Below are positions 27,873-62,471 of a DNA stretch of 64,000 nucleotides, piece by piece (position 1 is the stretch's first letter; every line of letters begins with the position of its first letter). The notes beneath the pieces were generated by a model. It worked only from the letters and a program-made list of their open reading frames with translations, did not search any database and was not told the DNA's origin. Both the position numbers and the translations under genes were made by a program. Origin of the DNA: Eledone cirrhosa (taxonomy: Eukaryota; Mollusca; Cephalopoda; Octopoda; Eledonidae); NCBI GenBank assembly GCA_964016885.1, contig OZ024743.1, forward strand, positions 127,505,365 through 127,569,364, given 5' to 3'.

Positions 27873-28070
27873 ATGGATCTAGAGACGAAATGGAGAACCT
27901 TATGGAAACCGGACTTAAAATGCTCTCCGTGGCGAGTCCTACAAGCTGATGAATATGTATATATGATTAAAACTCGCTTTGGAGAGAATTGTTACGAATG
28001 TATGATCACAGACCTTACTAATTATTGGTTCGAATCATTAACAGAAAGCGAATTCTGCCAACGTTTTCAG
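27873..28070 (+). CDS. NHEJ1: XLF-like exon 1 (head domain start)
   Basis: 66 codons, from ATG to a gtaaag donor, phase 0. The protein begins MDLETKWRTLWKPDLKCSPW and continues with a strand-rich head: VYMIKTRFGENCYECMITDL resembles the human ...AKVFITKQGYALLVSDL... segment, and NYWFESLTESEFCQRFQ matches the VWHEQ...SQRAKE region. The ATG fits because the human protein starts at nearly the same distance from these landmarks. No upstream in-frame exon is needed. Confidence 0.85.
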
Positions 28071-31000
28071 GTAAAGATATATGTATATATATATATTTTG
28101 TCTCTTATGACTGACTTTAAAAATGTTTTATGTAAGTTAATTTATAAAAAAAAAACTCAATTATTTCCTCATTTAAATAGTCATAATGATTAATTTTTTA
28201 GGCAAACCAAATACGTAGCATTGCCGCAGGTGATAGCGAGGCTAATATGCTGGAAAACCCAGCACCTTCGTGGGCATCACCTCATACGTCGGTAGGGCGA
28301 GCCGCCAACAATGACAAGAACATCGCTGTCATCAGCCTAGTTCCTTCAAATGCCTCAAATACCACAGTCTTAAAAAACAAACAAACAAAAACAAAACATT
28401 TTACAGATAATTCCTGGTAATTTAGAATTTTATTCCGATCGGCTACGGATGCGGTGACCTTCACCGCAACATCTAGAATGTGGGAAGGAGCAAGAGTCGC
28501 TAACTGTGACGTCCCAAATGAGAGAATGTGAGTGACTTGGTGGTAAGGATGCTGTACTCATAATAATAAGGTCGCCATTCTGATTCCAGGCCCGGGCAGT
28601 GCGTTGTGTCTTTGAACAAGACTTTTTATTTCTTGTTGTTTCAGTCCACTCAGATGGCGAAAATGAGTTGTACTTATAATTCAAAAGGCCAGCGTTTTTA
28701 ATAATAATTGTTTCTACTTTTGGCACAATGCCAGCAATTATACTAGTGTATTACTGGTACTTTATTTTATCGACCCCGTAAGGATAAAAGTTTTTAATAA
28801 TAATAATAATGAAATTATTGTGTACAGTGCTTAGGTGCACTACAACTCGTCAAATGTGCATGTATAGTACATAGAATAATGTACAGATGTCAGGGAAGTG
28901 AATAGTGTATGAGTCATGATATACATGTGTGCGTGTGTATGGAGGGGGAATATTAGGTGTAGTGTTGGCGAATCTCGGGAAGCATGGAGGTTTTAAAGGA
29001 TGCAGTGTCTCGACAGCTAATAACTGATGCTGGGAGTTTGTTCCACGCTTCAGCATCTCTGAGCGTGAAAAAATATTTCCGAAAGTCATTGGAAGTGTGC
29101 TGTTTTCTGACTTTGTTGGCATGCCCATGTGTGTTAGACACATGGAAATCAAAAAGGTACTCAGGGTTAATAATTTTGTGGGTGTTTATCAAGTTAGTTG
29201 CCAGACGTCGGAGCTTCAATGTATCCATGCCCAGGGAAGCAAGGCGTTCAGAGTATGGTAGATGCCTGATAGAGAGTATTTGCTTGGTTGCACGTCTCTG
29301 AACAGTTTCCAGGCAGTCAATGTTCTGAGCAAGATAGGGGTTCCAGACTGGTGATGCAAATTCTAAGTGTGGCCGCACCACAGCTATATGCAGCTTTAAA
29401 TAGATAGCTGGAGAGCAGCTGACAAAGGTCTTGCTGAGTGATGCTAAGACCCCCTCGGCCTTCTTGACAATTTTAGAGATATGCTTTGTCCAACGCAAAT
29501 CGCTGCTGACAGTAATGCCCAGGTCACGTTCACAAGAAGACTTCTTGATATTAGTGTTGTGGAGGGAGTATGTGGACGCTGGGTTTTTACTCCCAAAATG
29601 CGTGGTGGTACACTTGTCCACAGACAGCTTGAGTTGCCAGTCTGTGATCCATTGTTGCATTGTGTCCAGGTCAGATTGCAAGCAAGATCTATAGTGTTCA
29701 AGATCAGTCCTTCTTATCTCAAGGTACAGCTTGATGTCATCTGCATATTTCAGTACTGTGGCATTCTTTAAGTTGGCATCTATGTCATTAATATATGCCA
29801 CAAACAAAAGGGGGCCAAGAACAGATCCCTGTGGTACACCATATAACATCTCATATGGTCAGGAATGCTGTCCTAGAACCGTGACTACCTCTCTTTGACT
29901 GAGAATGAAGGACTTCAACCAGATAAAAAGATCATCCTTCACACCCATTGGAGAGAGTTTTACCATAAGTGTTTTGTGTGGCACAGAATTGAAAGCTTTA
30001 GCAAAGTCAAGGTAAACAACATCCACCCATGAGCTGCCATCAATGATCCGGGTGATGTCTTCAAGAAACTCGATAAAGTGATCACAGCAGCTGGAGTTAG
30101 GGATAAATCCAAATTGTGAGGGCCGAATAAGACTGTGAGAGTTCCAGAAGTTCCAAAGTATTTCTCTGACACAGGATTCCATCAGTTAACCCATGCTAGC
30201 ATGGAAGAACGGACGTAAAACGGTGATGATGATGATGATGGCAATGTAGCTAGTAAGACTGACTGGACGATAGTTCACAGGTGATGTGCAGTCACCCTTT
30301 TTGAATAGAGGAATGACACTGGCAGTTTTCCACTGTTCTGGAGTAGCACCATTGTTCAGACAGAATTGGAAGTGATAGCTGGTGCAGAAGGAAGTACCCA
30401 CCACGTTTGAGAAGCAGGTATGTAACACGATCAAGACCTGGAGAGGCATGGTTGCGTTTATTTTTAAGGTGATGTCGCAACATTGCAGGTGTAAATTCCA
30501 TATTTGTAATAGAATCCGGTGTCAGAGGTGGTGGAGACGGTACGCTCTGGTCTTCAATAGTGAAAATTCCTGCATAGCATTCAGCAATGAGTTCTGCGCA
30601 TTCCTTGGGGTCGTCAGTAACCTGGCTTGTGTGGGGATTGTGAAGAGGACCAACTGGAGAGTGAGGCTTCTGCTTTGAGTGAACATACTTCCAGAACACC
30701 TTACTGTCAGGGCTGGTTGCTATGCGTTGCTCAAATTCAAGCACTGCCTTTTTTGTCACCTGCTTGAGATGGTTGGATGATTTATTTCGTTTTTTCCTAT
30801 TGATATCTGATTTATGCAGTTTGTACTCACATTCAGCATTACAACGTTCTTTTCTGGCAAGACAGACTGCTGCAGTCTCCTAAATTGCACTTTTGAGATG
30901 GTTTTTCTGCTTACGTGGCACAGATGCTGCACATGCTGTCCATATTGGTGTCAGGATGTTCTGGAGTACAGTGTTGACATCTCCAGAGTCGTAAAACTCA

Positions 31001-44872: not shown

Positions 44873-47800
44873 GAGAGAGATGAGATTTAAAAATAAAATT
44901 GTTATTGATTAACAAATGATGAAATGATTTCTAATATATTTTGCTATGTTCCAGGAACTGAACCCTAACATAGAAGCACCGATTTCTAAAATCCTGGAAC
45001 ATATTAAATTGAATGTAGATAAAAGCCCTTCTGACAACCTGAGAATATCCAAAGATGACAAAGGAACCATGCATATCTGGATTAATTCCGAACTTTCTGA
45101 TTACCCATTTACCTGGGAGTTAATTGGGGAACCAGCACATGAAGAAATGGTAATTCCACGTTTTTTATATCTTTATATCTTTTTGTTGGTGCAGGCATGG
45201 CTGGGTATTAAGAGATTTGCTTTTCAATTTCATAATTGAGTTCTATAGTTGAGTTCTATCCCACTGTGGCACCATGGGCAAGTTTCTTCAGGTTGACCAA
45301 TGTCTGCTAAGAGAATGTGATTGAAGGAAACTTTACGAAGCCTGGATGGGAGGCATCATGTCTTCCTATAGAGATAAGTGTCAGAGGATTTGTTGATAAC
45401 AGAGTTACCTTACTGGACAGCTGTATATATTTTCCATTATGCTCTGACTCTCCAGTAGCAAGGAATCCATAATGACATTCTAACAAGATCTTCGATCTGT
45501 CATTGCCAAAGTCCCAAAAACAGACAAGATTCTTCTCCTTGGTTATTTTAATGTCAGGGCTGGTAAGGATCACGAGACTTGGGAAGCATTGGGGAAGTAC
45601 GGTCTTGGAAACGTGAATGGCAATGGGTTGCACCTTCTTCAGCTCTGCACTGAATTTGAACTAGCCATTTGCAACTTCTTTTTCCACTAGAAGGACGTTC
45701 ATAAGGTTATTTGTATTCACCCAAGATCCAAACATGGGCATATTCTTCATTATGTCATTTGTCTAAAATGAGTTGTTCAGGATGTCTGCACTGTCTGGGC
45801 TTTGCATGGTTCTGAGTGTGGGACAGACCATGCACTAGTACGTGGAAAAAGGAAATTTCGCATCAAACGTAATATAAGATCTAATGGGACAAGGCTTCCT
45901 TGACACATAAATATGTCAAGATTGCAGGACATGGTAGTTGGTAAGGATCTGAGGAGGGATTTTGAAGAAACAGAATTTGACGGCTCATGGGATCAGTTTA
46001 AGACGGTGGTCTACAATAATAGTGTTTAAGTCCTAGGTCTCAGGAAAAAGAAACATCGGGATTGGTTTGATGAAAATGATTCTCAGATCAACCAGTTATT
46101 GAGGGCAAAATATGATGCTCATCAAGTTTTTGAGTGTTTCAGATAAAATCTTTGCTCCAGCATGGATGAAAAATAAATAGTGGTCAGACATTTCAATATA
46201 GATTCAGAGTGCCCATGATGGAAAGGACTCCACCAGATCAATTATGCCTTTGGCCCTCAATCCATGTTCATGGTACCATTCAGGTCCAAAGATGGGTTTG
46301 TTCTTTTCAAAGACTCAAACAGTATAATGGAATGCTGGAGCAAGCATTTTACTGATCACTTTTTATAATTCCTCAGCGTTTAATGTAGATATCATCAATA
46401 ATTTGCCTCAGTTGGATATGATTCATGAGATGACAGATCATCCTACTTTGGTAGACGTCCAACACACTAGGGAAGATTAATACTGGGAATGCCCCAGGTT
46501 TGATAGTTCCTGTCGAGATCTTGCTTCATGGGTGTGACAGAATAGCTGTGGAGATTTACCATTTGATTTCTGATATTTGGTTGGGTGCTACTGTTCCTCA
46601 AGACTGGATTGATATGATCATTATTTTCTTCAAGGGAAAGGTGTCAAAGTTGGTGTGTGGCAACTATTGGAGAATAGGCCTTCTTGAAGCAGTGGGTAAA
46701 GATTTTGAAAAACTTCTCCTTAATAGGCTTACCAAGTCGATTTGCCCTCAAGTGATTCCGGTGACACAGTATGGCTTTAGGTTGGGCAGGGGCACAATAG
46801 ACATGATCTTGGCCTGCCAGCTGCAGGAGAAATGTTAAGAACATTGCGTGGCTTTGTACCAGGTTTTTGTTGACCTTACTAAAACTTTTGATTCCGTAAA
46901 AAGGGATGCCCTGTAGACCATACTTAGTAAGGTGGCATGCCTTCCAGATTTCATGAAATTGTTCAAACAGTTACATGGAGTATGAAAGGGAGGCTTGACT
47001 TCGATGGTTCTCTGGCTGAACCCATATCTATTGACAATGGAGTTAAACAAGGAGACATCCCAGCACCAACTCTGTTCTCTATCATCTTTGCCGTGACTCT
47101 CACAAATGCATTTCAGATTTGTGACGTCAGTGTGTATCTGCGTTTCAGGGCTTTAGGGTACAATTTAGGGTTGAATCAAAGACTTTCCATATATTGTTTG
47201 AGAAACACATAGTATTTTGTACACACTCAAAGCACATAATATTTAGGCAAAATATGTACTTCAAAGCGTAAAAAGTTCTTCTTTCCTAATAGTGCCATTT
47301 CATGGCTCTAGGAAGTATATGTATATATAATAATACTGAAACAAAGTCATCGGATATGACCGAATAATCTTTGATCGTTTTCCCCACTCACTTGATGTTT
47401 TAATTAAGCTAGTATTTTTAAGATACCAACCCAAATGAAAACAGTGCACACTAATACGTTAAATAGTGAGAAGAACGTTTTCGTGTGGGTAGGGAATTAG
47501 ATTCTCTCTTTCCAGACTAATTAATTAGTTTCCACTACTATGTATATATATGTATATATATATATCAGCCCCACACTGTAAATGTGGTTGGTGTTAGGAA
47601 GGGCATCCAGCTGTAGAAAACCCGCCAGACAGTCCTATGCGAGCAAGACAACCACTCTTGCCTCAAGTGGGAAAACCCCCGTCCAAACCCATGCAAGCGT
47701 GGAACACGGACGCTAAACCTTGATGATGATGATGATGATGTATATATATATATTTCGTTTCTGAATTTGTTTAGCAAGATTCTTTATCTGAAAACGTGTG

Positions 47801-51010: not shown

Positions 51011-53356
51011 ATAATAATAAATTTGAAGACTAAAATCCAAAGAGGGCTCGATAAGGATAAATATATATCAAATATATAAGAACCGTAGAGCAAATATTTA
51101 TTAAAATAACAGATTAAAGTTTAAGCAAAGAATCGCTGCTTTCACCCTTAACGGGATCTTCTGAAACTAACAAAGTCAATCTGTAAACGCAGAAGTGGAT
51201 ATTTCAAAAAACGTTGCAACCGGAGGAAGACAGGAAGACGATACTTTGGTTCGTGGAAACGTTCCCTATGCAAATAAGTAATGGTATAAACAAAACATAT
51301 ACTTAGCTACCACATCAAGACGTAAACAATCCACGTATAGATCGTACTATCCGTTAGGGTATAATGTAGGGCTGTAATACAGGAAAGTTTTGTGCAATTT
51401 ATGTTTACAAGCCGAAATTGCCTCAGATTTTTTGTTTAAGATGTAGTCTGTGGTGTAGAGTATTTCCAGGGCCTCAGCGGCTCAGAGGTCACATGGTCTT
51501 TTATTTCCGTTATACGATCTAGCCCTAGCTAGGATCTCACAGTGTAACTTAAATTGGGTGTGGTTGTCTTTTAGACTCCAGATATAAGCTGAAAGTGACG
51601 TCATATTCCTTCTAAGAGGGTAACAAAAAGAATGGGTATGCATGTAAAGACGCTGCTTGAATCTATTGGCGGTTAACCCTATGTAGGCCCTACGGGACGT
51701 GGGTGTTTCAACCTTACATTTGTAGACAATGTTACTAGAGAGGCATTTCCCGGATAGGGGGCAATCAACCCGATTCCTACAATTACAGTTAGTACTAACA
51801 GGATGTAGTTATACAAATACAAATGATACAAATGTAGTTATACAAATGATCAAAGACAATACACGTTGCAAATCTGTAAAAAAACAAGCAGTTTTGCTAA
51901 AGTACAAAAAGTTGTAATGAAAGCAGAGTTGTATACAAACAAAAAAACAATGAGAGTAGAATAAGACAAAATCTATTCTTTGAGAGCATCCTTTGCTGTG
52001 TATGGTTAAATTTTGAACTTATAATCCAAAATATCCTGCATGACATATTCATTGGTATGTTTTATAATGAGTAAGGTGAAGTCAAGGCAGAGCTGTAAGT
52101 TTTTTTGATAACACTAAAGCACTTCAGGATAGACGATATTCTTTGTTTTTCTTTTCGGAACAAATGCAAAGAGATTATCTCGACTGCCAACTCGTGAGCA
52201 GGCAACGTAGAATTGTCCGTGTGAAAAGCAAGGTTCATCCAAGTGAATTCCAGCAACGGACAGAGTTTGACCTTGCGACTTGTTTATGGACATCGCAAAG
52301 GCAACGCGAAGGGGAAATTGGGTTCGGTGAAAGGGGAAGGGAGTATCCACGCCTGATGTAGTCAGGCTAATTTTTGTTATTATTACATCCTCGCCTTTTC
52401 CACATCCGGATAGAATGGTAGCGTCAATACTAAGTGGAGACAGTTTTTTAACCACAAAGCGTGTACCATTGCATAGTTTTGGAGGAGTGATATTTCTCAG
52501 CAAAATAACTGGTGTTCCCTCTTTCAGAACCAATGTATTAGGAGGTAAACCAGGAGGATTTAAAGAATTTAGAAATTCAACTGGATAATTGACCGCATCC
52601 TGTGGATCACATACAGTATCAATAGATTTATATATCCATGGACATCCAGGAAGAAGCTGAAGAAGCTGATCGTTAATACAGCTAACCGTGATACTTTTGG
52701 GTGCAAGAATGACTCTTTCGCATAGCCAATCAAGATTTGTATAGTTATCACGCAAGTTCGGGAATACACTTGCCTTGAGATCATTGACAGTTTCAACTAC
52801 ATTGCAGATGTGATCAATTGCTATGTGTCCATCTGTATCCGGAGGTAGGTTACCATCTCCTATTGTAAGAATGTCTCCAGAAAATGTTGATGACATAGGG
52901 TCCCCATGTAACCTTGCACGCGTGTTGGTAGTTAGTCTTAATGATGTCACTTGTCGCCACAATGGTGAAGACTTAAGACATGCATTTACCGCATCTGCTC
53001 TTGTTCCTTTCGGTATTATAGGAAGAGTCTGTCTGAAGTCTCCTGATAGCAGAAGGGTGACAACCCCCCCATAACATCACTGCAATACCGTATGTCTTGC
53101 AAAGGTTATCTCCCTTTTTTATAAGGATTGTCAAAGTTTGTTATCTCCCTTACATCAATTTTTCTACCGATAATTTTGATATCGATTTTTTATTGCTCAA
53201 CGTAGGTCGATTTGAAAAATGTTCGTGATGTGACAATCTTAGCGACCAGTGCAACGTGCACAGAAAATTTGGTCAAATTCAGTTGGTAATTGTGAAAGCC
53301 TTAAGCATGCAAAGTTGTACACAGACACACACACATCCTCGCTTTTATATATATAA

Positions 53357-53390
<34 letters not shown>

Positions 53391-56300
53391 TTTGGTGGAT
53401 ATTTGCATGAATTTAAAACAAGATGCATAGCGCATCAAAGAAATGCTGTATTTAGATACAGATTAGTACAAATATTATTTACAATACATTTATTATATCT
53501 ATTTAATGTAACCTTTATTAGCTTCAATGACCTCTATCAATACTGGACATTGTGCTGGTAATGGCAGACTTTAGAGATTCTATAGTGTTGTGGGGGTTAT
53601 GATTGACCTCTCTTTCAACTATGCCCCATAAATAATAGTCCAGGGGATTGAGGTGAGCTAGGAGGCCATGTCTGGAAGAACGTGGTTATATAGATTGTCA
53701 GGCATCCATGCTTGTGTCATTCTGGCCTTATGAGAGGGCACGAAGCCTTGGAAGACAAATCGTCTTCTGTTGCTTGCCCTGTTTATCCAGGGCTTCACAA
53801 CTGTCTCCAACACCTCTTCGTAGACAGCAGCATTGACTCTGAAGCCCTGAGTAAAAAAATGAGAAGGCATGACATCTCCTTCATTACTGATGACACTCAG
53901 AGCCTCTACAGTCACTGGAAATTTGATGTGCATGACTGTTGGATCCTCATTTGGGTTTCTGCATAGCCATCTATCGTTCCTTTGGTTTACATTTTGGTCC
54001 TGATCAAAGTTTTTCTCATCAAAAAAGAACCAAAGCATTCAAACTTCTTAATGTTTTATTTCATTTAGTAAGTGCTTTGCACGGACCAAATGATTTTCTT
54101 TTGTCACATCCAACATAAACTGGCCTCTCCGCATCACTTACGACTTGTATTGAATGTTTTCATGGACAACTCTTCTGATGGTGTATTCTGAAAGCTTAAG
54201 ATCCTTTGTGATGTACATTAAACAGTGATGATGACAATGATAAGGCTGTGTGTGTATGCCAGTCACCACAAACATTATATCAACATCTCTTATAAAGCCT
54301 GTGGTGACAATTGTTTATGTCTTCCATAAGCAATACATCTAGCAGCATAGCAGTTCAATAAACACCAGCAGCAGTACACTCTGCAAACTGGCTGTTGCCA
54401 GGAAAGGCATACAGATGAGAAAAACATGCTAAAAAAAGATTTCATCCAAACCATACAAATGTGGAAAAACTGACGTAAAAATGATGATGACGCTTTTCTT
54501 GGAAACATCTTTGAAACTCTATTTGGTGGAGTAGATAAGAAATTCATTTACCAGAGCTGCAGAGATTTTGTTGTGTATTTTAGCTTACACCTGCTTCTAA
54601 ATTGCTCTTATATATATTTCTGATGAAAGATATTCTCTAAGTAACTTTAATCCTATCATTACCATATTTCTAATGAAAGGCACTACTATTATTTTCAAAT
54701 CATTTTGAAAGTAGTCATGATTTTGGAAGGATTTAGTAATATAACTAACTAACTTGTTATATAACTGGTGTTTGGCACATAATGGTTCTTATATAAAATT
54801 ATGATGGAAGGTTTTTAGATAGATATAACACTTTAATATATACATTTTTTTTTAATAATAAACCACAGACAGTTTGGAATAATAGGGTTGATTCTAAACG
54901 TTTTCACCTATTGTGTATTTCTTTCTTTTCAACTAGATCTCTGAGAACATGACTATTCCACTTTTGTTGATGGTGTCCGAATTGTATCACCGACAAAGAG
55001 AACTAATTCATATTATTTCCAAAAAGGATTCAGAAATTGAAGACTACAGATCCCAATCAGTTAAACTTACTCAAAGTAAAGCATTTTCAATATTATTTAT
55101 TAATTTTGTAAAATTGAGAAAGAAAAGGGCCACAGGTCCTCCATTTCTGCTGATAGTCATATGCTTTTCTCAAATTTAAGTTATGATGTAAATTTTTTTT
55201 TGTTTAGTCATGGAAAAGAGGGCAAGGCAGTACCCATGACCCTCATCTGGGTTTCCAAAACTGTTGGGAGGGAAGATGGTATCCTCAAACTGAAGATCTG
55301 ATCTGAATGCATGCAGCAGAATGAACTCTGCTAAAGGCACCCAAGGACTGGATGGTAATGTTAGCCCAGGCAATGGCATAAGGTGGATAAAATGAGGTGC
55401 ATGACTGATAGGTGCAGTTATTTTGCACTATTGTAGTACAGAACAAATTAATGAATGAAACAATTTGTATTGTAAACGTGTAAGATTTGTACTTCTGATT
55501 AAATGACATTCAATTTTGCAAATTATGGCATCGAATGTTATTGCTCTTTATATATCTTTTTCACCCTAACATGTAATATATATGTGTGAGTGTGTTTAAA
55601 ACCATACCAATTTATATTGGTGAAGGTTTTAAACATTATTGAGAAAAGCAAACAAGCAGTACTTTTCATACAAAGTTCCTTGTGATATTTATTCTGCACT
55701 AAATTACACTGACACTCCCTTGTCACTCTAGCCATTGACAGTACAAGGAACTAGTAATTGGCATGTTATAAAACTGTAATCAACAAAACTATTGGTTACC
55801 AATTGTGATGTAAAATACATAATCTTCACCTGCTAACATTATCTGTTCTGTGATTTCAGAACAACTAGCGACTGTCTGCTTTGATAAAACAACTTTTGAA
55901 AACAATATGGTGTTATCTAAGGTGAGTGGTATCATCATTATCATCCTCCTCATCCTCATATATCCACTTTCCCTGCTGTCATGGGTTGGATTGGTCACCA
56001 CAGACCAAGATTGTATTTAACTCTTAACATGAAATAACATTAGCAAATCTTTCTTAAAGCTTACAAAATAGTACTATCATTACAGCATATTAAAAATTAA
56101 AACCTTTAGTTTAACACTGTTCCAATGATCTGACCAGTAGTAATGATACTATAAACATTTGAACTAACAAACCTGTTTTTAGATGTTTTCTGCAACCAGA
56201 AGAGGGCACTTTTAATGCCTGTGAGGTAACATAGTAATCTGGGGTTTTGTGTGGGGTTTCTTCCTAGAATTACCCTAAAGTATAGTCCCCCAATATTGGT

Positions 56301-59300
56301 GAACTTGTCCTTGTTGACATTTGTTATTGTTTTCTCATGTTATGTATATATATTACAGTTTCTATTATTGTTATTTCTTCCGTTTTCTCTTTGGTGATGT
56401 TCCCTTTCCTTTACTCTGTGTTGTTTTTGTCCTTGTGGCCAATAAAAGAAATTATTTTTTGCTGGCCTTGTGCCTAAATCAGAAACCATTATTATTATGT
56501 TTGGATTTTGCTTTGTGTTTGTACGAGCTCACTCCAAGTCCTATTCAGAGACTGCAAGAGACATCATACTATAAGTTCAAGTAGACATTATAACTAGGAT
56601 AGTTGATAACTGCCATGTTTTTGGGAAGAATGTAGTTTAGTGATAGGGATTTGTGTTTCAATTGTTTTAGAAAATGTCTGTCAAAATATAAGAAAATTAA
56701 AAGTTTATTTAAAACAGTCATGGGCAAACTATGGCCTATGCTCCACATGCAGCCCATTTGGCTTTCTGAATGGCACACCTAATTTAAAACTGCCTTGAAT
56801 TTTTTAATAGTGCGGTCCGCCATATGATGAGCCACATCCTATGCGGCCCACTGCTTGAAAAAGGTTGCCCATGCCTGATTTAAAAGTAGTTGTGTGGTGC
56901 TAAAATAATAGTATGACTTTGAAAAAAATTGTTTTGGAGTTACATAGACAATGTTTCATAGGATATGAGCTGTCCCCATGAGTACTATTTTCTGAATTTC
57001 CTCTATTTTTTTGATTTCCTGGTATTTGGGATAGGTAATGTTTAGCCCCTTTCACTATTATTCCTAAAGCAACTACTACATGTAGCCAATTTCTATTTCA
57101 AGATCTTTGCACTTGCTCAATTTTTGGTAGGTCATTATATCAATTGGGCTGTTATATCAAACATGTGCTGAGGCTATGACATCTCCAATGTTAACTTGAC
57201 AGTGAACAGGTGTGCCAAGCAAGTATTTCCACAGCTCATCTTCTTGACAGAGCTGCTGTCCTGGGTTAAGCGAAGACCAGGAGGGAGCGCTTGGAAACTG
57301 GAATGTCTTTGAGTGTTTACAGCCCTCAGTCAATCAGGCAGTATGATCAGTGGAAACTCCACCTTGCCTTTCTATAGAGGGTTAGTGGTGGGTAACTCTT
57401 TTCCAGAGGTTTTTCAGTCCAGGATTCATAGATAACATCCAGAAATCCCTGGCCTGGAAAGTGCCACTGTGGTGCTTTGCTAGTTTTAGATAAACTCTAC
57501 AGGGATGGAAGTGCTGTCAGCCGACCCTGTCCGAGATGTGTGCAGGGCAAAGAAACTATCCTACATGCACTCGTCGAGTGTCCAAGTATTACTGACTTGT
57601 AGGTATATATTGAACACCTGCTGTCACATGTGGGACACATCCAGCTATTAACTGAATCCATTGTGAAGATCGCCCCACCACCTTTATTTTGCTAGAAAGG
57701 GCATGCTGTTTTTATCTGTTTGGCTGGAAGAGGAAAATCAGAGTACAGAGGGAAGTGCTGCCTTTCAGCCATTTTGTTGAAATGTGGACGAGAGTGACAA
57801 GCATGGTCTAAATGAATGGACCAGCTCTAAGTATACACCCATAAATCAGAACTGAAGAACTGAGAGGGCACTTGCCTTAGCGGTCAGAGCAACTGTGGTT
57901 TATGGGATTTTTCCACAAGCAGCCTTTGGATATCTCCTCCCTATTGAGGAATACTTATTGTTGAAATTATAATAATTACCTCCCTTATTATATTAAACCA
58001 GTTTACACACTCAATATTTTGTCCTTAATATTTTTCTTGATGTAAACCCTTTGTGGTTAATAAAGAAATCATAATCTTTATTATTATCATTATTTCTTTT
58101 GTTACGGCGGTGAATTGGCAGTATCGGTAGAGGGTCGGACGTCATGCTTTGACGTATAGAGTTACGGCCCTTGCCATTCTGAGTTCAAATCCCGCCGAGG
58201 TTAACTTTGCCTTTCATCCTTATGGGGTCGATAAAATAAATTACCAGTAATCTTCTGGGTAATTGCTGGCTTTGTGCCAAAAGTAGAAACAATTATTTCT
58301 TTTGTTACTTGTTCTCATATTTCCTTTTTTTTTGCTTTCGTTTTTAAAAACTGTATAACTAGGAATTTGAGGACAGAGTGAAATTGTTGGGGACAACTGC
58401 TTTTGACAGTTTTGGGCAGGATCTTTACCAACAAATCATGACAAAGTATACATGGCTGCACAAATGTAGCAAAGCTGATCCAGGTAGAGTTGCCTAATTT
58501 ATTTTGTACAATGTTGTCATCACTTCCTGCTATTATCTCTTTCATCACCATCATCATCCTCACTATTATCATCATTACCATCACCATCTGTTATTATCAT
58601 CATTATCATTACCACTGCAATCTTCATCACAAACATTATCATCATCATCCTCTATCACCATTGCCACTACCACCTTGGTTACCATTTTTACCACCATCAC
58701 TATGCTCATTCTCACCATCACTACCTGTTACTGTCATCATCATCATCACCATCATCATAGTCTATCACTATCAACATCACAATAATCATGGTCACCATCA
58801 TCATCATAGCCATCTGTATTTCAGCTCCATGTTGGTGACTTCTGTTACTTTTGTTATGTCACATTATTTCTGTCTACCATTGTATGATGTTTTATGACCA
58901 TTGACATGGCCAAGTAGTGAAGTTTACTTCACAATCACAAATTTCTTGGTTCAATCTCACTGTACATCTTAAAGAAGTGTCTTCCAAGTCATGTTGGATA
59001 AATGACAGGTGTTATATGCTATGTCACACTGACTCTGCTTTATGTGGGATTACATTAAGGATACAAGTGTGTGGAATACTTAACCATTACTTTGTTATTC
59101 AATGAGTAGGTAGTTCTGTTGATCTAATGAGAAATTTGTCCCTGCTTTCTGAAAAAGTCTCTTCTATACAAAAGAAAATATTATCCTCAGCTTTATCTAC
59201 ATTGTTTACCATTTACCTGTGTTACCATTGCACATACATACATGCTTACATATACATATACTCCAGTATACATTGTAAATTGGTTGGTGTTAGGAAGAGC

Positions 59301-60549
59301 ATCCAGCATTAAAAATCATGCTCCCAGTACATGCAGTAAAGTGAATGGTATTAGGAAAGGCATCCAGCCATAGAAACCAAGCCAAAACAAAGTGTACTAG
59401 CAGGACCTAATCACCTGACCAGTCAGGCCTCAGTATGCATCAGCTGTCTAACCCATGCAAGCATGGAAAATAGATGTTAAACGGTGATGATGATGATGAT
59501 ATACATCATCATCTCCATTTAACATCCACTTTCTCAGCTAGCAAGAGTTGAACAGACCTTCATAGACAGAGTCAGTACTGAAGTGGGGCTCACATCTTGT
59601 ATACATACAGTTCCATGTTCTACCATGTGCATTTTATTGTGGCCCCAGCACTAGAGAAGTTATCATGTCCTTGACACAACTGAAGGGTGCTCCCAACCCT
59701 TTGTTTGGCAAGCGTTCTATAGCTGAATGTCCTTCCTGTCACTAACCACTTTACAGTGTGTACTGGGTTCATTTATCGTATAGATCACTAGCACTAGGAG
59801 AGGTTGTCATGTCTTTAACACAATTGAAGAGTCCTCCCAACCTTTTTAAGCATGATTTCTACAGCTGGGTGCCTTTCTTCTCGCCAACCACCTTCCAGAG
59901 TGTACTGGCTGCATTTTCATGGCAAAGTCACTTGAGAAGTTGTTGGTCATAGTCCTTACTTAAGAGCCCTCCCTGCTTTGTGGGATTTAGAGGTGGGGGA
60001 GGGCAGAAGAGAAGAGAAATAGGTATGATGCTATGGGTGTATGATGAGTGTGGTGATGTGACTAGATGATGAGTAGGGAGAATGGGTGACTAGTATAGTA
60101 TGTTAATCCCAGGCTATAGTAAACGTGTAATTTTCTATAACCTGAGGTTGACCTATGCCTTGTGAGGTAAATTTGGGTAGATGGCAATTGTCTAATGAAA
60201 TGTACTTATAATTCAAAGGGCTAGCCTTGCTGTACATGTGTCTGGGGAATGCTCATCCACTTGCATGTTGATTTTTTGAGCAGCCTATTCTGTTAGTCAA
60301 AACAATGGTAGCACTCATTATCAAAACTGATGGAGTTCCGCTCTCTTTGTCTGTTGTTTTGTGAGATGAATTATTTGTATTGAGGTGTAGATATGGCTGT
60401 GGGATTAAGAAGTTTACTTCAGAAGCTTTGGACTTCAAGTTCAGTCTAACTGCATAGCATATTGGGCAAGTCTTTCATTATAGCCTTCCATTAATCAGTG
60501 TCTTGTGAGTGATTTTGATAGACGGAAAATGTAAAGCCCATTTGTATGA

Positions 60550-60599
<50 letters not shown>

Positions 60600-62471
60600 T
60601 CAGTATTTAATCAGATCTACTATCTTCCCAGGAACCATGTCCCATTTATATATATATATGTGTGTGTGCGCGCGTACTAGTTGCCAAGAACATCATTTTG
60701 ACTTCATTATGAAATCTGTAGTGACAGTTGTTTATGTCATCCATAAATAATACATTGGGCAGCATTTGACCACAGTATGGGTTGACATCAGGAATAACAT
60801 TCATCTCAGATTGTTATTATCTCTGATGGTGACTCAATGTTTTAACCAATATTGTCTTAACCCTTTTGATACCAAGCCACTTGAAACCACTTTTGATTCT
60901 ATGATACAAAACTGTTTGTTTTAAAGTGTTTTTCTTTATTTAAAAACCTTCCATCATAATTTTATGTAATAGCTTTTGTTAAGTTCCAAACTCCAGCTTA
61001 ATAATGAGATATTACTAAATTCCTCTAAATTCTTGATTACTTTCAAAATTATTTTACAATTATGCTCAGTCTTTCATTAGAAATATGGCAATGAAAGGAT
61101 TAATTGTCATCTTATGATATATGTTTATTACTTAACCAAGGAAGAAAATGAACCTGTAACATCATTACTCTACTCCTCTAACATTGATTTTTATGAAATA
61201 TTTTTGCAGTTTAGCCTCAAGTCAGGCCAGACCAAGTAGACATATGATCAAAGGTACCCAAGCAGTAACCATTTAGTCTTATTTACTAGAACTACATTAG
61301 AATATGGCAGTTGAATATGGCTCAGTCTTTAGTTATATAGCAGTGGAACGTGATTCAAAGTCTTTAGCAATATTACAGTTGAATGTGGCTTAAAGACTTT
61401 GGTAATATGACAATAGAATGTGAATCCATCTTTAGTTATATGACAGTGTTTTAATAAGAATATGATTCAAAGTCTTTTAGTAGGATATTAATAAAATAAC
61501 TAATATTGTGGTGTTAATTCAAATGACTTTACTCACTCCCTCTCCATAAAAATTAGCCTCGTGATTAGTAAAAGAAAGCAACGCTGTTATAATATTTTAA
61601 TTGAATAGTTAATTATCTGTTTGTTTTTTTGGCTAATATCCTTTCATATTTTGGAATAATTAATATTTATATTCCATCTCACATTTCATTTCCCATTCCA
61701 GAAACCTTTGAAATTACAAAACCTTTAGAAGAATCTTCCAATGTGTTTACAGAGCTTGCAGAACTGTCAACTGCTGTGGAAGAACATGAGCAGAAGGTTA
61801 ACATTAGCCCTGACATCTATGATTGCAACCAGTGCATATTTTCAACAAGTTCCCAAGAACTTCTGCTCCATCATATCAGCATGTACCATGAAGACTCTGC
61901 TCTAACTATCAATGCCAACTTTGCTGGCCAGCTCCAGCAAACAGTTCTAGCTGATCCATTGCCTTTGTTTAATGCTGGTAATATCGCCTGTCCACAGTGT
62001 GGTCAACACTATAAGACTCAATATGGATTGCAGAGTCATATGAACTCTAAACACCTTGGAAAGTTTCTGTTTAACTGCTCAATATGTGGTCGTGGTTTTG
62101 ATAGTTTCTGGACGTACAAATCCCACATCGACAAGCATCACATACTAGAAGAAAAATGTGACCGATGTAATTTGACGTTTCGTTTTAAAAAAAGCTTGTT
62201 ATCTCATAAACGTTTTTGTGGTCGTACAAAACACCATGGTGGGGAGTTGTTTCGTTGTAACATCTGTGAACAGACTTGTTCATCAAAAGACTCTCTTTCC
62301 ACCCACATGCGTGGGCAACATGGCAGCCAACACTATCGATGTAGACGCTGCAACAAAATCTATAAATGGCGTTCATCATTGAGGTATCACACTGAGAAAT
62401 GTTTTAATCAGCCGGTTATTCTCAATACAGACAATCCGGAACCACAATCTATGTTGTTGATGGCTGTTTAA
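27873..62471 (+). CDS. NHEJ1: XLF (NHEJ1)-like protein with C-terminal zinc fingers, six-exon model
   Basis: Model: 27,873-28,070; 44,955-45,149; 54,937-55,075; 55,860-55,921; 58,363-58,483; 61,702-62,471. It sums to 1,485 nt, 494 residues plus stop. Residues 1-238 follow the order of human XLF: head domain with W10/W20-region aromatics, SELSDYPFTW (111-120, human SELSGLPFYW), then the coiled coil RELIHIISKKDSEIEDY and a short fold-back region. XLF bridges DNA ends with XRCC4-ligase IV and Ku in non-homologous end joining in the nucleus. Residues 239-494 carry six zinc fingers instead of the usual disordered tail with a basic Ku-binding end. All five introns are GT-AG and phases match (0,0,1,0,1). 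XLF identity is strong for exons 1-5; joining exon 6 is inference from phase, strand and order. Intron sizes are about 16.9, 9.8, 0.8, 2.4 and 3.2 kb. Confidence 0.65.
28202..28423 (+). other. Possible alternative exon or read-through frame after exon 1
   Basis: After an acceptor-like attttttag (AG at 28,200-28,201) a frame in phase with exon 1 stays open for about 73 codons (ANQIRSIAAGDSEANMLENP...) to a TAA at 28,421-28,423. It has no counterpart in XLF and the normal alignment jumps directly to exon 2. It could be a cryptic terminal exon or chance. Confidence 0.2.
28528..28702 (+). mobile_element. tRNA-headed SINE
   Basis: A-box-like TGACTTGGTGGTAAGGATGC is followed by a B-box-like ctgattccaggcccg and the body 'tgcgttgtgtctttgaacaa...gtccactcagatggcgaaaa'. 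A relative of the SINE at 36,258. Confidence 0.55.
28703..28792 (-). mobile_element. SINE 3' fragment
   Basis: Reverse-oriented SINE 3' half: aattgtttctacttttggca, gtgtattactggtactttat and atcgaccccgtaaggataaa. Confidence 0.8.
28793..31310 (-). pseudogene. CR1-like LINE, 5'-truncated
   Basis: Minus strand, from the end of an apurinic endonuclease (31,299-30,880; TSPTRGDNTLDLLF, GDSDHAIIIANLSL) through a linker (30,759-30,292; ASPGLDRVTYLLLKR) to RT (30,182-29,859, FGFIPNSSCCDHFIE, VYLDFAKAFNSVPHK; 29,849-28,953, GVPQGSVLGPLLF, VLKYADDIKLY). One TGA near 29,861 separates the last two frames; the rest of the RT and the C-terminal region (AEAWNKLPASVISCRD) is open. The 3' tail is ATT-type. It is interrupted at 30,182-30,240 by an RTE tail. 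Within intron 1 of the XLF-like gene, antisense to it. Confidence 0.88.
30184..30240 (+). mobile_element. Tiny RTE tail insertion in the CR1-like LINE
   Basis: A 55-bp RTE 3' end (cccatgctagcatggaagaa, cggacgtaaaacggtgatga with GATGAT tail) interrupts the RT frame between PVNYRPVSLTSY and VREILWNF. An extreme 5' truncation. Confidence 0.75.
31320..31470 (+). mobile_element. SINE fragment (second family)
   Basis: Contains tctatggaatgctcaactat, ttacgtgttaatcccacgag, matching the body of the SINE at 8,527. Confidence 0.45.
31471..32030. other. Gene-free intronic stretch
   Basis: No coding similarity recognised. Confidence 0.5.
32040..32205 (-). mobile_element. Old SINE
   Basis: Reverse SINE landmarks: tcgactttgaaaggatgaaa, gcaggatttgaactcagaga and a degraded head near ctgtgccaattcgctac. 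Confidence 0.55.
32312..32510 (+). mobile_element. tRNA-derived SINE, full length
   Basis: Complete copy: gcggtggattggcagtatcg with A box, aagttcaaatcccactgagg with B box, body and ccaaaagtagaaacaatt tail. An exact 12-bp target-site duplication TTATAGGGAACT flanks it (32,300-32,311; 32,511-32,522). Confidence 0.9.
32523..32990. other. Gene-free intronic stretch
   Basis: No element or coding signal recognised. Confidence 0.5.
32990..33330 (+). mobile_element. Degenerate, repeated RTE tail pieces
   Basis: Three diverged partial copies of the RTE tail motif follow one another: 'aaaatgcacccaatacactc...gttagtgttaagaaaaaaca', 'atgcatccagtagaaactt', and 'tgcacccagtacactttgta...ggtgttggaaagagcatcca'. 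Confidence 0.55.
33497..35455 (+). pseudogene. RTE LINE copy C, 5'-truncated
   Basis: The frame 33,525-33,974 covers RT blocks (GPSGIAAEMLKASG, FGFVPGRGTIDALF, FVDLEKAFDSS), then a frameshift near 33,945. The next frame has a TAA near 34,059 and then runs through LLYADDLALIAES, the PHD-like finger (CSVC...CPKF..WVHKRC...CSSC) and the post-RT region (LRWYGHVMRMKDD) to 35,148. In the finger, one Cys of the second CxxC pair reads Phe. The 3' UTR-like tail ends in a GATGAT run at 35,452. Within intron 1. Confidence 0.9.
35505..35640 (+). mobile_element. Old SINE
   Basis: Contains attaaggcagtgaattaggg, ttgcctttcatctttttgag and gttgataaagtaccaat in SINE order; diverged. Confidence 0.5.
35912..36095 (+). 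mobile_element. tRNA-derived SINE, full length
   Basis: Complete copy from gtggatggattggcactatc to the gcctaaagtagaaaca tail, flanked by an exact 18-bp duplication agtatatatttctatctc (35,894-35,911; 36,096-36,113). Confidence 0.92.
36258..36475 (+). mobile_element. tRNA-headed SINE carrying an RTE tail
   Basis: Head: TGGCTTAGTGGTTAGAGC (good A box) and ggttgtgagttcaattctca (B box). Body: gtttccttgagcaagacact. The 3' part (ccactgcaaagtggtcatgg, aggtgccacggcaaaaaagc) is the RTE 3'-tail sequence. The copy is cut before the GATGAT end; a fuller copy lies at 50,000-50,342. Confidence 0.8.
36476..36957. other. Gene-free intronic stretch with microsatellites
   Basis: CA-rich run near 36,515-36,535 and TA runs at 36,657-36,673 and 36,943-36,957. 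Confidence 0.5.
36958..38250 (+). pseudogene. mariner transposon with broken transposase
   Basis: Imperfect terminal inverted repeats: gggaggatcaaaaagttcgc at the left and, reversed, gggggatcaaaaagtttgcg at the right end. The transposase is read in pieces: helix-turn-helix region 37,137-37,379 (YKWIQRFKQGRDDLEDDHRS), then TRIITGDET with an in-frame stop, then 37,699-37,926 (ATIFWDSDGVILIDYLEG, FDHDNAPAHS) and YSPDLAPSDFFLFPK after a further stop. The three catalytic Asp positions (GDET, HDNAPAH, PDLAPSDF) are recognisable. Cut-and-paste element, inactive here. Confidence 0.88.
38251..41207 (-). mobile_element. RTE LINE copy D with a long open ORF
   Basis: The minus-strand frame is open from about 41,206 to a stop at 38,651 (about 850 codons). 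It starts inside the endonuclease (YGFGTRNEEGSRILEF, VDYILTRRRDR), so the element is 5'-truncated. Counting from residue 1 at 41,032 (a GTG codon, so not a real start): RT FVDLEKAFDRV at 385, LLYADDLTLI at 474, a C4HC3 PHD-like finger at 533-576 (C533, C536, C547, C550, H555, C558, C573, C576), and post-RT LRWYGHVMRMK at about 722. The 3' tail runs to a GATGAT-type end at about 38,252, directly beside the mariner. Antisense to the XLF-like gene, in intron 1. Confidence 0.92.
41208..41434. other. TA repeat and gene-free stretch
   Basis: TA repeat at 41,206-41,230, then two 'gtgagatgggttgggctcc'-like units; no gene. Confidence 0.5.
41435..41622 (+). mobile_element. RTE 3'-tail copy
   Basis: tcccacactgtaaatgtggt, aggaagggcatccagctgta and gcaagcatggaaaaattgat, ending in a GATGAT-like stretch. 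Confidence 0.75.
41812..42000 (-). mobile_element. tRNA-derived SINE, full length
   Basis: Complete reverse copy bounded by an exact 18-bp duplication aaattatgtttatatata (41,794-41,811; 42,001-42,018). Confidence 0.92.
42008..43390 (+). mobile_element. Non-autonomous Helitron with internal repeats
   Basis: The left part (tatatataaaactgaggatg, tctgtctgtgtgtgtg) resembles Helitron 5' regions. Block 42,029-42,200 is repeated at 42,297-42,470 (agtttgaatccctaaaactc, cccaaccgac, tatgtttcagggagtg). A ~145-bp unit (gggcctgcattaggtgaaaa...) recurs at about 42,440, 42,589 and 42,723. The right end shows a hairpin (atcccttgcaacactgggta) and terminal CTAG (43,387-43,390) before T. An RTE tail splits it at 42,768-43,255. 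No coding sequence. Confidence 0.65.
42768..43255 (-). mobile_element. RTE 3' fragment nested in the Helitron
   Basis: Minus orientation: starts in the last RTE codons (KMTWDEVIKADLIQLHLSKA-like), continues through the tail and ends in a GATGAT run at about 42,770. Closest to copy C. Confidence 0.8.
43391..43825. other. Gene-free stretch, repeat remnants
   Basis: The block near 43,535-43,680 resembles 41,650-41,790 (gaggaagg/gagaaaggagg, cagcgttctaag, ctacacacattg) and may be a piece of another Helitron-like repeat. Confidence 0.4.
43828..44797 (-). pseudogene. mariner transposon, decayed, minus strand
   Basis: The termini are imperfect inverted repeats (ttcaaaatgttcatggaaaa at left; reversed right end attaaaaaagtttgtggaaa). 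The minus-strand coding reads VFWDAEGLLLVDFLEGRK-like, YYEKVLRFARNLAEKHPEK and FKQDNAPPHS, with further pieces towards 44,620. Several stops and shifts. Confidence 0.8.
44805..44880. repeat. (TA)n microsatellite
   Basis: About 50 bp of TA repeat, 75 bp before the exon 2 acceptor. Confidence 0.9.
44955..45149 (+). CDS. NHEJ1: XLF-like exon 2 (rest of head domain)
   Basis: 65 codons between an acceptor (gttccag) and a gtaatt donor, phases 0 and 0. Starts ELNPNIEAPISKILEHIKL, aligning with human [20 protein letters not shown]. Contains IWINSELSDYPFTWELIGEP, aligning with the last head-domain strands of XLF. The position of human Leu115, needed for XRCC4 binding, is occupied by Tyr in this alignment (residue 115 of the model). 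Confidence 0.88.
45300..47215 (+). pseudogene. Decayed LINE with endonuclease and RT
   Basis: On the plus strand, endonuclease traces (KILLLGYFNVRAGKDHETWE, GNGLHLLQLCTEFELAICN, IHPRSKHGH) at 45,510-45,760. RT traces follow: 46,500-46,838 (FFKGKVSKLVCGNYWRIGLL, QYGFRLGRGTIDMIL) and 46,937-47,160 (LSEPISIDNGVKQGD-like, PAPTLFSIIF). Many stops. A different lineage from the RTE copies; exact clade not assigned. It lies in intron 2, sense to the host gene. Confidence 0.75.
47216..47565. other. Gene-free intronic stretch
   Basis: No recognisable element. Confidence 0.5.
47568..47740 (+). mobile_element. RTE 3'-tail copy
   Basis: ccccacactgtaaatgtggt, ggaagggcatccagctgtag, aaacccgccagacagtccta and a GATGAT end. 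Confidence 0.85.
47741..48052. other. Unclassified repeat-like stretch
   Basis: No coding frame; contains aattataataaatttataaattt-like palindromic AT sequence and 'ttggttggttggttcc'. It joins copy E abruptly. Confidence 0.4.
48053..49075 (+). mobile_element. RTE LINE copy E, C-terminal part and tail
   Basis: Starts within the post-RT domain (VARVRTGWKKFRELIPLL) and is open to the native stop at 48,575 (LWWYSVIEKTRLI). The tail contains a duplicated block: 'ctgtaatgtggccgtgtagg...aagggcatccagctgtagaa' occurs twice (about 48,760-48,860 and 48,869-48,968). GATGAT end. Nearly identical to copies B and D. Confidence 0.9.
49116..49992 (+). mobile_element. mariner-like element, internally deleted
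   Basis: Terminal inverted repeats: aggtgtttctgaaaagtaac at the left, and reversed right end tttgtctgaaaagtaacggg. Internal coding traces: EQQTNLKFLVQLGITLSEVL near 49,316, IKWHKRFKG-like near 49,430, then a jump to LAKKNITELEQPPYSTDLTP near 49,685 (the PYSPDLAP box). The catalytic middle is missing. Confidence 0.8.
49995..50342 (-). mobile_element. tRNA-headed SINE with RTE tail, fuller copy
   Basis: Minus orientation. Head at 50,275-50,342 (A box in tggcttagtggttacagc-like order, B box in gttgtgagttcaattctcag). Body: gtttccttgagcaagacact. The 3' half is the RTE tail (ccactgcaaagtggtcgtgg, gttggtgttaggaagggcat) ending in a GATGAT-type run near 50,000. Same family as 36,258-36,475. Confidence 0.85.
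50430..50535 (+). mobile_element. tRNA-like SINE head
   Basis: Has A-box-like gtggcctaatggtaggtatt and B-box-like gggtttcgatctcag with about 35 nt between. No closed acceptor stem, so a SINE head or tRNA pseudogene rather than a tRNA gene. Confidence 0.4.
50536..51007. other. Gene-free stretch with TA repeat
   Basis: TA repeat at 50,970-51,007; an open frame at 50,538-50,771 has no recognisable similarity. Confidence 0.5.
51008..51790 (-). pseudogene. Penelope-like element, GIY-YIG endonuclease fragment
   Basis: The minus strand from about 51,787 reads NRVDCPLSGKCLSSNIVYKC, then RRAYIGLTANRFKQRLYMHT, a GIY-YIG-type nuclease as found at the C-terminus of Penelope-like retroelements (the pattern IVYKC...AYIG, with Arg in ANRFKQR). 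It continues SLSAYIWSLKDNHTQFKLHC to a TGA (51,482-51,484), then AAEALEILYTTDYILNKKSE. The RT part is absent. Non-coding 3' sequence extends to about 51,010. Confidence 0.78.
51791..52113. other. Gene-free stretch
   Basis: No recognisable coding or repeat family. Confidence 0.45.
52114..53075 (-). pseudogene. Helitron helicase C-terminal part
   Basis: The minus-strand frame is open from about 53,075 to its stop near 52,114. It reads LLLSGDFRQTLPIIPKGTR, LWRQVTSLRLTTNTRARL, LPPNTLVLKEGTPVILLRN, AFAMSINKSQGQTLSVAGI and SHGQFYVACSRVGSRDN: motifs II-VI of a PIF1-family helicase as in Helitrons. Walker A and the Rep domain are missing because the frame joins directly to the 5' sequence at about 53,076. 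Confidence 0.88.
53076..53370 (-). mobile_element. Helitron 5' region joined to the helicase remnant
   Basis: Read on the minus strand, it starts ctttatatatataaaagcga and ggatgtgtgtgtgtctgtgt, typical of the 5' ends of the Helitrons in this window. Internal deletion has fused it to the helicase end. Confidence 0.6.
53520..54222 (-). pseudogene. Tc1/mariner-superfamily transposase remnant
   Basis: The minus-strand frame 54,038-53,658 reads LWFFFDEKNFDQDQNVNQRN (first catalytic Asp box) and HFFTQGFRVNAAVYEEVLET, then RRRFVFQGFVPSHKARMTQA, where the usual second-Asp box (QDxAPxH) is altered. Upstream to about 54,222 is a helix-turn-helix-like piece (KDLKLSEYTIRRVVHENIQY). Downstream traces of the DYYxWG box follow a frameshift. 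Inactive. Confidence 0.72.
54355..54495 (+). mobile_element. Degenerate RTE tail
   Basis: acactctgcaaactggctgt, gccaggaaaggcatacagat, acaaatgtggaaaaactgac and a GATGATGAC end. Confidence 0.6.
54645..54840. mobile_element. ttaaccc-type MITE copy
   Basis: Reverse-orientation copy of the MITE at 60,858: ctttaatcctatcattacca, tatttctaatgaaaggcact and ataaaattatgatggaaggt in order. Confidence 0.6.
54937..55075 (+). CDS. NHEJ1: XLF-like exon 3 (coiled coil)
   Basis: 139 nt, acceptor caactag, donor aaa|gtaaag; enters phase 0, leaves phase 1. Encodes ISENMTIPLLLMVSELYHRQ, then RELIHIISKKDSEIEDYRSQ, aligning with human [20 protein letters not shown]... and MKDLEIQDYQES. This is the long helix through which XLF dimerises. 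Confidence 0.88.
55860..55921 (+). CDS. NHEJ1: XLF-like exon 4 (fold-back helix start)
   Basis: 62 nt, acceptor gatttcag, donor aag|gtgagt; enters phase 1, leaves phase 0. Encodes (K)QLATVCFDKTTFENNMVLSK, aligning with human RLKTEPFEENSFLEQF. Too short to be seen as an open frame by itself; placed by splice sites, phase and similarity. Confidence 0.82.
55930..56015 (-). mobile_element. Short RTE tail
   Basis: Reverse-oriented tail: a catcatcattatcatcctcc run and atatccactttccctgctgt followed by catgggttggattggtcacc. Confidence 0.5.
56250..56500 (+). mobile_element. Old SINE 3' pieces
   Basis: ccttgtggccaataaaagaa (a cephalopod SINE 3' end) is followed by tgctggccttgtgcctaaat with an ATT tail. 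Confidence 0.5.
56715..56877. mobile_element. hAT MITE, 163 bp
   Basis: Begins cagtcatgggcaaactatgg and ends, reversed, caggcatgggcaaccttttt: about 14-16 bp inverted repeats. Exact 8-bp target-site duplication ATTTAAAA at 56,707-56,714 and 56,878-56,885. The inside contains gcggcccactgcttgaaaaa. No coding capacity. Confidence 0.9.
57185..57720 (+). mobile_element. LINE C-terminal fragment with zinc knuckle
   Basis: The plus strand reads LDKLYRDGSAVSRPCPRCVQ and GKETILHALVECPSITDL: a CCHC knuckle (C-2-C-8-H-4-C) of the kind found at the C-terminus of several LINE lineages. Interrupted by stops. Clade not assigned. Confidence 0.55.
57960..58088 (+). mobile_element. Old SINE 3' end
   Basis: aaaccctttgtggttaataa, agaaatcataatctttatta: a SINE-type AATAAAGAAAT end with ATT tail. 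Confidence 0.45.
58106..58291 (+). mobile_element. tRNA-derived SINE, full length
   Basis: Complete copy between exact 17-bp duplications attatttcttttgttac (58,089-58,105; 58,292-58,308). It inserted only about 55 bp upstream of the exon 5 acceptor, just outside the polypyrimidine tract. Confidence 0.92.
58363..58483 (+). CDS. NHEJ1: XLF-like exon 5 (end of XLF core)
   Basis: 121 nt, acceptor ataactag, donor cag|gtagag; enters phase 0, leaves phase 1. Encodes EFEDRVKLLGTTAFDSFGQD and LYQQIMTKYTWLHKCSKADP. FGQDLYQQIMTK resembles the human NLQDLYMAVTTQ segment at the end of the structured core. Read-through of the donor would end after GRVA at a TAA (58,496-58,498), an alternative short C-terminus. 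Confidence 0.8.
58520..58815. repeat. CAT/ATC trinucleotide-rich tract
   Basis: Long imperfect (ATC)n and (CAT)n sequence; poly-His and poly-Ile frames are artefacts. Confidence 0.85.
58910..59140 (+). mobile_element. SINE (second family) copy
   Basis: aagtagtgaagtttacttca head, then gtgtggaatacttaaccatt and agttctgttgatctaatg, the body seen at 8,527. Confidence 0.5.
59265..59505 (+). mobile_element. RTE tail with duplicated unit
   Basis: 'cattgtaaattggttggtgttagg...' and 'gcagtaaagtgaatggtattagg...' are two tandem tail units; ends tgcaagcatggaaaatagat with a GATGAT run. Confidence 0.7.
59506..59960 (-). mobile_element. RTE tail, reverse, degenerate
   Basis: Begins with catcatctccatttaacatc and continues with two inverted tail units (gctgaatgtccttcctgtca; gctgggtgcctttcttctcg). 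Adjacent head-to-tail to the previous tail as an inverted pair. Confidence 0.65.
60090..60540 (+). mobile_element. Diverged SINE copies
   Basis: tatgccttgtgaggtaaatt, tacttataattcaaagggct, then at 60,395 a second head (gattaagaagtttacttcag) and aatcagtgtcttgtgagtga. Confidence 0.45.
60550..60675. repeat. TA/GA/TG microsatellites
   Basis: Compound GTGTGTATATA...GAGAGAGA (60,550-60,600) and TATATG/TGTGTGCGCG (60,645-60,675). Confidence 0.85.
60858..61102 (+). mobile_element. ttaaccc-type MITE, best copy
   Basis: 245 bp with imperfect inverted ends: ttaacccttttgataccaag at left and, reversed, ttaatcctttcattgccata at right. Interior: ccatcataattttatgtaat, gatattactaaattcctcta. Relatives at 9,354, 54,645 and 63,321. 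No coding capacity; superfamily not assigned. Confidence 0.7.
61103..61680. other. Intronic stretch with short tandem-like repeats
   Basis: From about 61,300 to 61,490 'aatatggcagttgaatatgg' and 'ctcaaagtctttagtaatat'-like units recur four to five times, a degenerate minisatellite of about 45 bp. No gene. Confidence 0.45.
61702..62471 (+). CDS. Terminal exon: six C2H2/C2HC zinc fingers
   Basis: Acceptor tcatttcccattccag, then 770 nt to a TAA stop. It completes the split codon left by exon 5 (G + AA = Glu). An acidic linker (ETFEITKPLEESSNVFTELA...) leads to fingers at model residues 280-301, 335-356, 364-385, 391-411, 424-445 and 452-472; fingers 4 and 6 end in Cys (C2HC). Spacing C-2-C-12-H-3/4-H/C is regular, so the fold is intact. 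The linkers are not the TGEKP type. Clean coding sequence with no TE similarity. It has no start codon in a convincing context, so it needs an upstream phase-1 donor; exon 5 is the nearest. Likely nucleic-acid binding; target unknown. Alternatively it belongs to a separate gene or is an alternative last exon. Confidence 0.85.

Follow-up and report, generated by a model that had tools for sequence, protein, structure and literature searches.

The stretch of Eledone cirrhosa DNA analysed in this study (64,000 nucleotides, hereafter the window) very probably contains the octopod gene for the end-joining factor XLF (NHEJ1) with an alternative 3' end, in the structure modelled below. The best reading of this gene, which appears likely from comparisons with other cephalopod sequences, is that a cephalopod XLF isoform exchanges its Ku-binding tail for a constrained array of zinc fingers with a putative nucleic-acid or chromatin target.

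The NHEJ1 gene and its alternative endings

Six exons between positions 27873 and 62471 of the window, all on the forward strand, were joined in phase into a reading of 1,485 nt that encodes 494 amino acids plus a stop. Exon 1 (27873..28070) begins at an ATG and encodes the XLF head together with exon 2 (44955..45149), each assignment being supported by a PF09302 match, splice borders and 88% identity to Octopus vulgaris; these two exons are also the only two places in the whole genome with matches to PF09302. The coiled coil (XLF_CC) is encoded by exon 3 (54937..55075), on the evidence of splice borders, Pfam and an O. vulgaris match. Exon 4 (55860..55921, donor GTGAGT) was picked from six in-phase candidates of 62 bp (146 candidates if all lengths up to 257 bp are counted), and the choice is backed by its splice borders and by the O. 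vulgaris match, with 76% identity over 21 residues. Exon 5 (58363..58483) ends at a phase-1 donor (CCAG/gtagag) and is the point at which the isoforms diverge. Exons 1 to 5 are bordered by AG acceptors and GT donors, apart from the ATG start of exon 1. The preliminary description had proposed that these five exons give an XLF-like protein of 238 residues ending in phase 1, and the borders and the Pfam matches agree with this.

Across intron 5 (58484..61701), which was delimited by its borders and whose junction is common to three homologues (P0001, P0002 and P0005), lies the alternative 3' exon (61702..62471, 770 bases, hereafter the finger exon). This exon has the acceptor ttcatttcccattccag, requires phase 1, and is open through an acidic linker and six C2H2 fingers until a TAA stop, an assignment likewise backed by the joined homologues. 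The in-frame continuation to an exact multiple of three, claimed previously, was reproduced in the computed 1,485 nt. Additionally, the first AATAAA 3' of the stop (62726..62731, forward strand) is a candidate poly(A) signal by motif match only, and further AATAAA motifs start at 63240, 63370 and 63825.

Two exons encoding the canonical XLF tail were found in the 40 kb downstream of the window, at 88272-88435 and 88923-89015 in continued window coordinates (C4:127593636-127593799 and C4:127594287-127594379). The tail exons lie 26 kb downstream of the finger exon, which is thus inside NHEJ1, and exon 5 and the tail exons join in phase into 972 nt. A search of the whole genome with the tail as query found only these two places significant, the third match (E 9.7) being at chance level. 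The first tail exon is followed by a GC donor (GAGAAG/GCAAGT at 88435/88436, continued coordinates). The XLF half of the octopod gene spans 30 kb by itself, and the gene including its alternative 3' end is about 61 kb long. The earlier exon model of XLF plus fingers was right, but its picture of the gene was incomplete.

The 29.8 kb from exon 5 to the canonical tail exon were scanned, in any phase, for runs of at least 150 open codons preceded by a pyrimidine-rich AG, and five places were found: the start of the finger exon, one place within it, and three at 82435-82973, where the reading resembles, by eye, the antisense LINE frames of the window. The finger exon (61702-62471) is one possible gene end among others.

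The same parting of two endings was seen in sequences from other sources. P0002 and P0008 are identical over 272 residues and then part exactly at the junction, P0002 going to the fingers and P0008 to a tail ending in KKKRKLAL; P0005 and P0006 likewise have 241 identical residues in an unbroken run and separate at that same place, one to the fingers and one to a tail. Both splits fit alternative splicing at exon 5, which would give two endings of one gene from one junction, and both endings are encoded in the E. cirrhosa genome. Basic tails with no fingers were also found in O. sinensis isoform X4 (P0003) and Argonauta hians isoform X2 (P0004).

Three products can be read from this arrangement: (a) the XLF core with the canonical tail (972 nt); (b) the core with six fingers, ending at the stop at 62471 and lacking the Ku-binding tail; and (c) the core with four fingers and the tail, as in the O. 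vulgaris record P0001. The finger exon may accordingly act as a composite terminal exon: if polyadenylated, it would yield the XLF core and six fingers with no Ku-binding tail, and splicing from a donor inside it, the situation of the O. vulgaris record, would give the core, four fingers and the basic tail. A candidate internal donor at 62238..62239 (CCATG/GTGGGG, forward strand) is in frame and would give 1,509 nt with four fingers and the canonical tail; the exit point of P0001 is one codon 3' of this donor, at a position with no GT in the window. Product (c) is therefore possible in this species, as judged from the reading frame.

The hydrophobic end of the vertebrate XLF tail enters a pocket of Ku80. 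The octopod tails end in RKRMV, RKRAA or RKRVA, lacking the hydrophobic end of the decapod-like KLAL and of the bivalve MAF or IAF, and their Ku binding may be weakened.

Transposon-like sequence is present in the NHEJ1 introns and upstream of the gene. LINE-type reverse transcriptase frames were observed at 17491-20255 (+), 33462-35148 (+), 38651-41275 (-) and 28953-31365 (-), including one intact-looking frame of 874 aa with RVT_1 and a PHD finger. Frames of Helitron-like N-terminal and PIF1 helicase type occur at 22449-26615 (+) and 52114-53076 (-), and Mariner-like transposase pieces at 37110-37926 (+), with a Mos1 HTH domain, and at 53658-54038 (-), the latter named by eye with no Pfam match.

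Joined homologues and distribution of the fingers

The joined 494-aa query retrieved 22 proteins, and the junction between XLF and fingers recurred in P0001, P0002 and P0005; a search of other cephalopod NHEJ1 predictions for C2H2 fingers had been suggested in the preliminary description. P0002 (552 residues, six fingers) aligns to 100% of the window model at 58% identity. It stands nearer to P0005, from a cuttlefish (66%), than to P0001 (55%) and is therefore called decapod-like. Its longest contig has 1,916 bases and the source label 'lgn', presumably denoting assembled public sequencing reads; because a contig of this size reads from XLF into the fingers, compared with 30 kb for the XLF half in the octopod, spliced RNA or a retrocopy is implied. 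The RNA origin of P0002 and P0008 rests on the contig size and on this reading of the label, and a retrocopy is formally possible.

P0001, an Octopus vulgaris NHEJ1-like record, runs from XLF through four fingers into a basic tail. Exon 5 is joined to the finger exon just as in the window, with 95% identity over 183 residues of the finger exon, but P0001 exits this exon after four fingers to the basic tail, whereas the window model keeps six. The Acanthosepion pharaonis NHEJ1 gene model (P0005) passes at the same junction residue into the finger exon and stops after one finger. Ahead of finger 2, the C-terminal end of P0005 departs from the finger frame, as after a frame change, and its remaining, unrelated letters mismatch P0007; this break could be an assembly error or a real loss. 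P0007 (source 'ena'), from a contig of 195,913 bases, covers the finger exon as an open frame with six fingers and lacks the XLF part. Both P0001 and P0005 are gene models from databases, possibly predictions. That P0002 spans the whole joined query and P0001 joins at the same residue takes the phase match beyond the one-in-three accident allowed for at first. The original claim of a fusion thus stands as to the junction, common to three homologues; XLF has nevertheless kept its ordinary tail, which other isoforms use, so that the finger end is an alternative.

The finger exon could instead be a separate C2H2 gene whose phase matches by accident. The genome does hold many C2H2 exons (at least 151 matches at E<=1e-5), and agreement of phase alone would be expected once in three; the exon nevertheless sits between NHEJ1 exons, the join recurs in P0001, P0002 and P0005, and the only other matches to the C2H2 motif in 104 kb are at 92139 (+) and 13562 (-). 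Moreover, the first methionine of the exon is residue 61, within finger 1, and the 41 residues upstream of finger 1 are conserved at 41-50% identity; this conserved stretch before the first methionine is therefore read from upstream exons. Since the exon is flanked by NHEJ1 exons and joined in other sources, the reading as a separate gene was rejected as very improbable.

Altogether, the protein searches gave 29 proteins, in which clusters stand for several sequences and none is named Nautilus. Eight are cephalopod or cephalopod-like (P0001-P0008, of which P0002, P0006, P0007 and P0008 were placed by similarity), and four of these eight carry fingers of this exon: P0001 with four, P0002 with six, P0005 with one and P0007 with six. 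The other four end in tails. Fingers were found in none of the 17 non-cephalopod XLF proteins retrieved (P0009-P0018 and P0023-P0029, from bivalves, gastropods, Amphiura and one other), consistent with the earlier statement that animal XLF is not known to have zinc fingers, and the remaining four (P0019-P0022) are generic finger proteins. One of the 17, P0018 from Amphiura filiformis, carries a PF13565 helix-turn-helix before the XLF head that resembles, by eye, the N-terminus of a transposase; this is possibly a second XLF fusion or a model error.

The search of the E. cirrhosa genome with the finger array (148 of 7,101 candidates scored) gave at least 151 matches at E<=1e-5: a single full match, followed by a short fragment, with the other arrays listed being 27-38% identical. 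No second full-length copy of the fingers was present among these matches. Additionally, residues 268-552 of P0002, used as a query, retrieved four proteins, all of them known NHEJ1 or finger-exon sequences; because this search covers proteins about 304-966 aa long with short words in common, it may miss a distant source. Neither search yielded a donor gene for the fingers. The short fragment, an 84% match from finger 6 to the end, corresponds to a stretch of about 173 bases at C4:220365336-220365464, 93 Mb distant, that is 94% identical to 62351-62523 (finger 6 to the 3' UTR). It contains one stop. It ends in a TA microsatellite with no poly(A), and was therefore dropped as proof of a retrocopied finger transcript.

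Conservation, domains and fold

Profile searches of the joined protein matched XLF (PF09302, 7.3e-26, 91.2 bits against a cut-off of 24.6), XLF_CC (PF21928, 8.7e-9, 35.6 bits against 27) and zf-C2H2 (3.4e-16, 59.1 bits against 25.2). The head and coiled coil resemble human XLF/NHEJ1 (Cernunnos; structures 2r9a and 7lsy) by profile, sequence and fold, and the canonical tail isoform is encoded in the same gene; the difference from human XLF is the added alternative C-terminus of six C2H2 fingers. The alignment of P0003 with human XLF stops at residue 241 (human 238), three residues beyond the junction at 238, and the fingers therefore occupy the place of the disordered tail. The proposed structure prediction of the joined form was carried out on the homologue P0002 (AlphaFold2, 21 sequences; mean pLDDT 56.3, pTM 0.36), which gave a confident model mainly of the XLF head. 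In a Foldseek search, ranks 1-22 (best 7.0e-14) were taken by XLF chains from NHEJ structures, and finger chains of CTCF appeared from rank 23. By sequence, the nearest solved relatives of the finger exon are ZNF568 and CTCF, and by fold, CTCF and other solved finger arrays are the top finger structures after the XLF chains; the resemblance is generic, and the linkers and contact residues differ.

The six motifs of the finger exon follow the pattern CxxC-x12-H-x3-5-H/C on the forward strand: finger 1 (61824..61889), finger 2 (61989..62054), finger 3 (62076..62141), finger 4 (62157..62219), finger 5 (62256..62321) and finger 6 (62340..62402), with fingers 4 and 6 (two of the six) of the C2HC type. 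Between the window and P0002, fingers 2-6 are identical at 115/139 positions (83%) and finger 1 at 16/22, as compared with 72/131 (55%) for the XLF head, 65/107 (61%) for the coiled-coil part, 16/39 and 12/30 for the two linkers, and 8/22 for the C-terminal end. Against P0007, fingers 2-6 are identical at 118/139 positions (85%). The contact positions of fingers 2-6 are the same in the window, P0002 and P0007 in 18 of 20 cases, and those of finger 1 in two of four. These identities suggest that the finger block is under constraint; in the comparison of the window with decapod-like sequences, it is more conserved than the XLF core. That the join is mere splicing noise with no function is very improbable, because octopod and decapod-like sequences agree at 83-85% of positions in fingers 2-6, more than in the XLF core.

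Fingers 2-6 carry 26 K+R against 9 D+E in 138 residues, a basic charge that plausibly favours nucleic-acid binding as a predicted role. At the helix positions through which nucleic acid is commonly contacted, fingers 2-6 have the sets TYGS, SWTS, FKSS, SDST and WSSY, mostly S, T, Y, W and F, and TGEKP-type linkers are absent from the array. To our knowledge, these contact sets are unlike those of known base-reading fingers, so that the partner may instead be structured DNA, RNA or protein, and classical base reading by the array is not evident from its residues. The nucleic-acid-binding array of the preliminary description is plausible from the charge of fingers 2-6, but their contact residues and linkers are not classical. 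As in the C2H2 proteins of the cephalopod expansion described in the portion of PMC12513265 considered here, the fingers follow one another within a single long exon; the window array differs from them in being fused to XLF.

Possible roles of the finger form

In the sections of PMC7744095 drawn on here, the tail of vertebrate XLF and its Ku-binding motif are needed for efficient joining, and in frog extract and mouse cells the length of the tail matters more than its sequence. One Ku-binding motif per XLF dimer suffices according to the same sections, XLF with no such motif supports little joining in frog extract, and a heterodimer with one full tail rescues joining, if less well. In the octopod isoform, the head and coiled coil are kept whole, so the finger form should dimerise and bind XRCC4, and its basic fingers could provide a tether other than Ku, most likely to nucleic acid or chromatin. 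Because one motif per dimer suffices in vertebrate systems, a Ku tail on one subunit and a finger array on the other could be combined in a mixed dimer, with the fingers as a second tether; the finger form alone would be poorly recruited by Ku, but a mixed dimer could work. This tether mechanism, drawn by analogy with vertebrates, is tentative, with somewhat less than an even chance of being correct. Slightly more doubtful is the broader proposal of a coleoid, Ku-independent placement of XLF, in which the tail is swapped for a finger array more constrained than XLF itself and end-joining synapsis would be aimed at nucleic-acid structures or chromatin.

The finger form may also have left repair altogether and become an XLF-dimerised chromatin, transcription or RNA-binding factor, its coiled coil pairing two finger arrays. 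Such a role would suit a six-finger product lacking the Ku-binding tail that vertebrate XLF requires for joining (PMC7744095, in the sections used), and a finger block better conserved than the XLF part. However, the XLF head is whole in the same open frame, and the O. vulgaris record holds fingers and tail in one protein, so that Ku binding and fingers are seemingly compatible; a departure from repair appears rather unlikely. Less likely again is that the finger form is an inhibitor, which would dimerise with canonical XLF or occupy XRCC4 and thereby lower joining. The poor joining by XLF lacking the motif in frog extract agrees with inhibition, but the rescue, less efficient as it is, by heterodimers with one full tail (both in the same sections of PMC7744095) does not, and an inhibitor would not require five finely conserved fingers with 18 of 20 contact positions kept.

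No description of XLF or NHEJ1 with zinc fingers in cephalopods or molluscs was found in open-licence PubMed Central, and the terms NHEJ, XLF, end joining and DNA repair are absent from the main text of the 2025 paper on cephalopod C2H2 genes (PMC12513265). The fusion is already in databases under the ordinary NHEJ1 name. From the comparisons made here, it appears to be an XLF variant with an alternative, strongly conserved finger ending common to octopod and decapod-like sequences. Overall, a core factor of non-homologous end joining would have a natural isoform in which the tail is replaced by a finger array, pointing to another tether or another use of the scaffold. With both endings in one gene, cephalopod cells allow a direct test of the role of the XLF tail.
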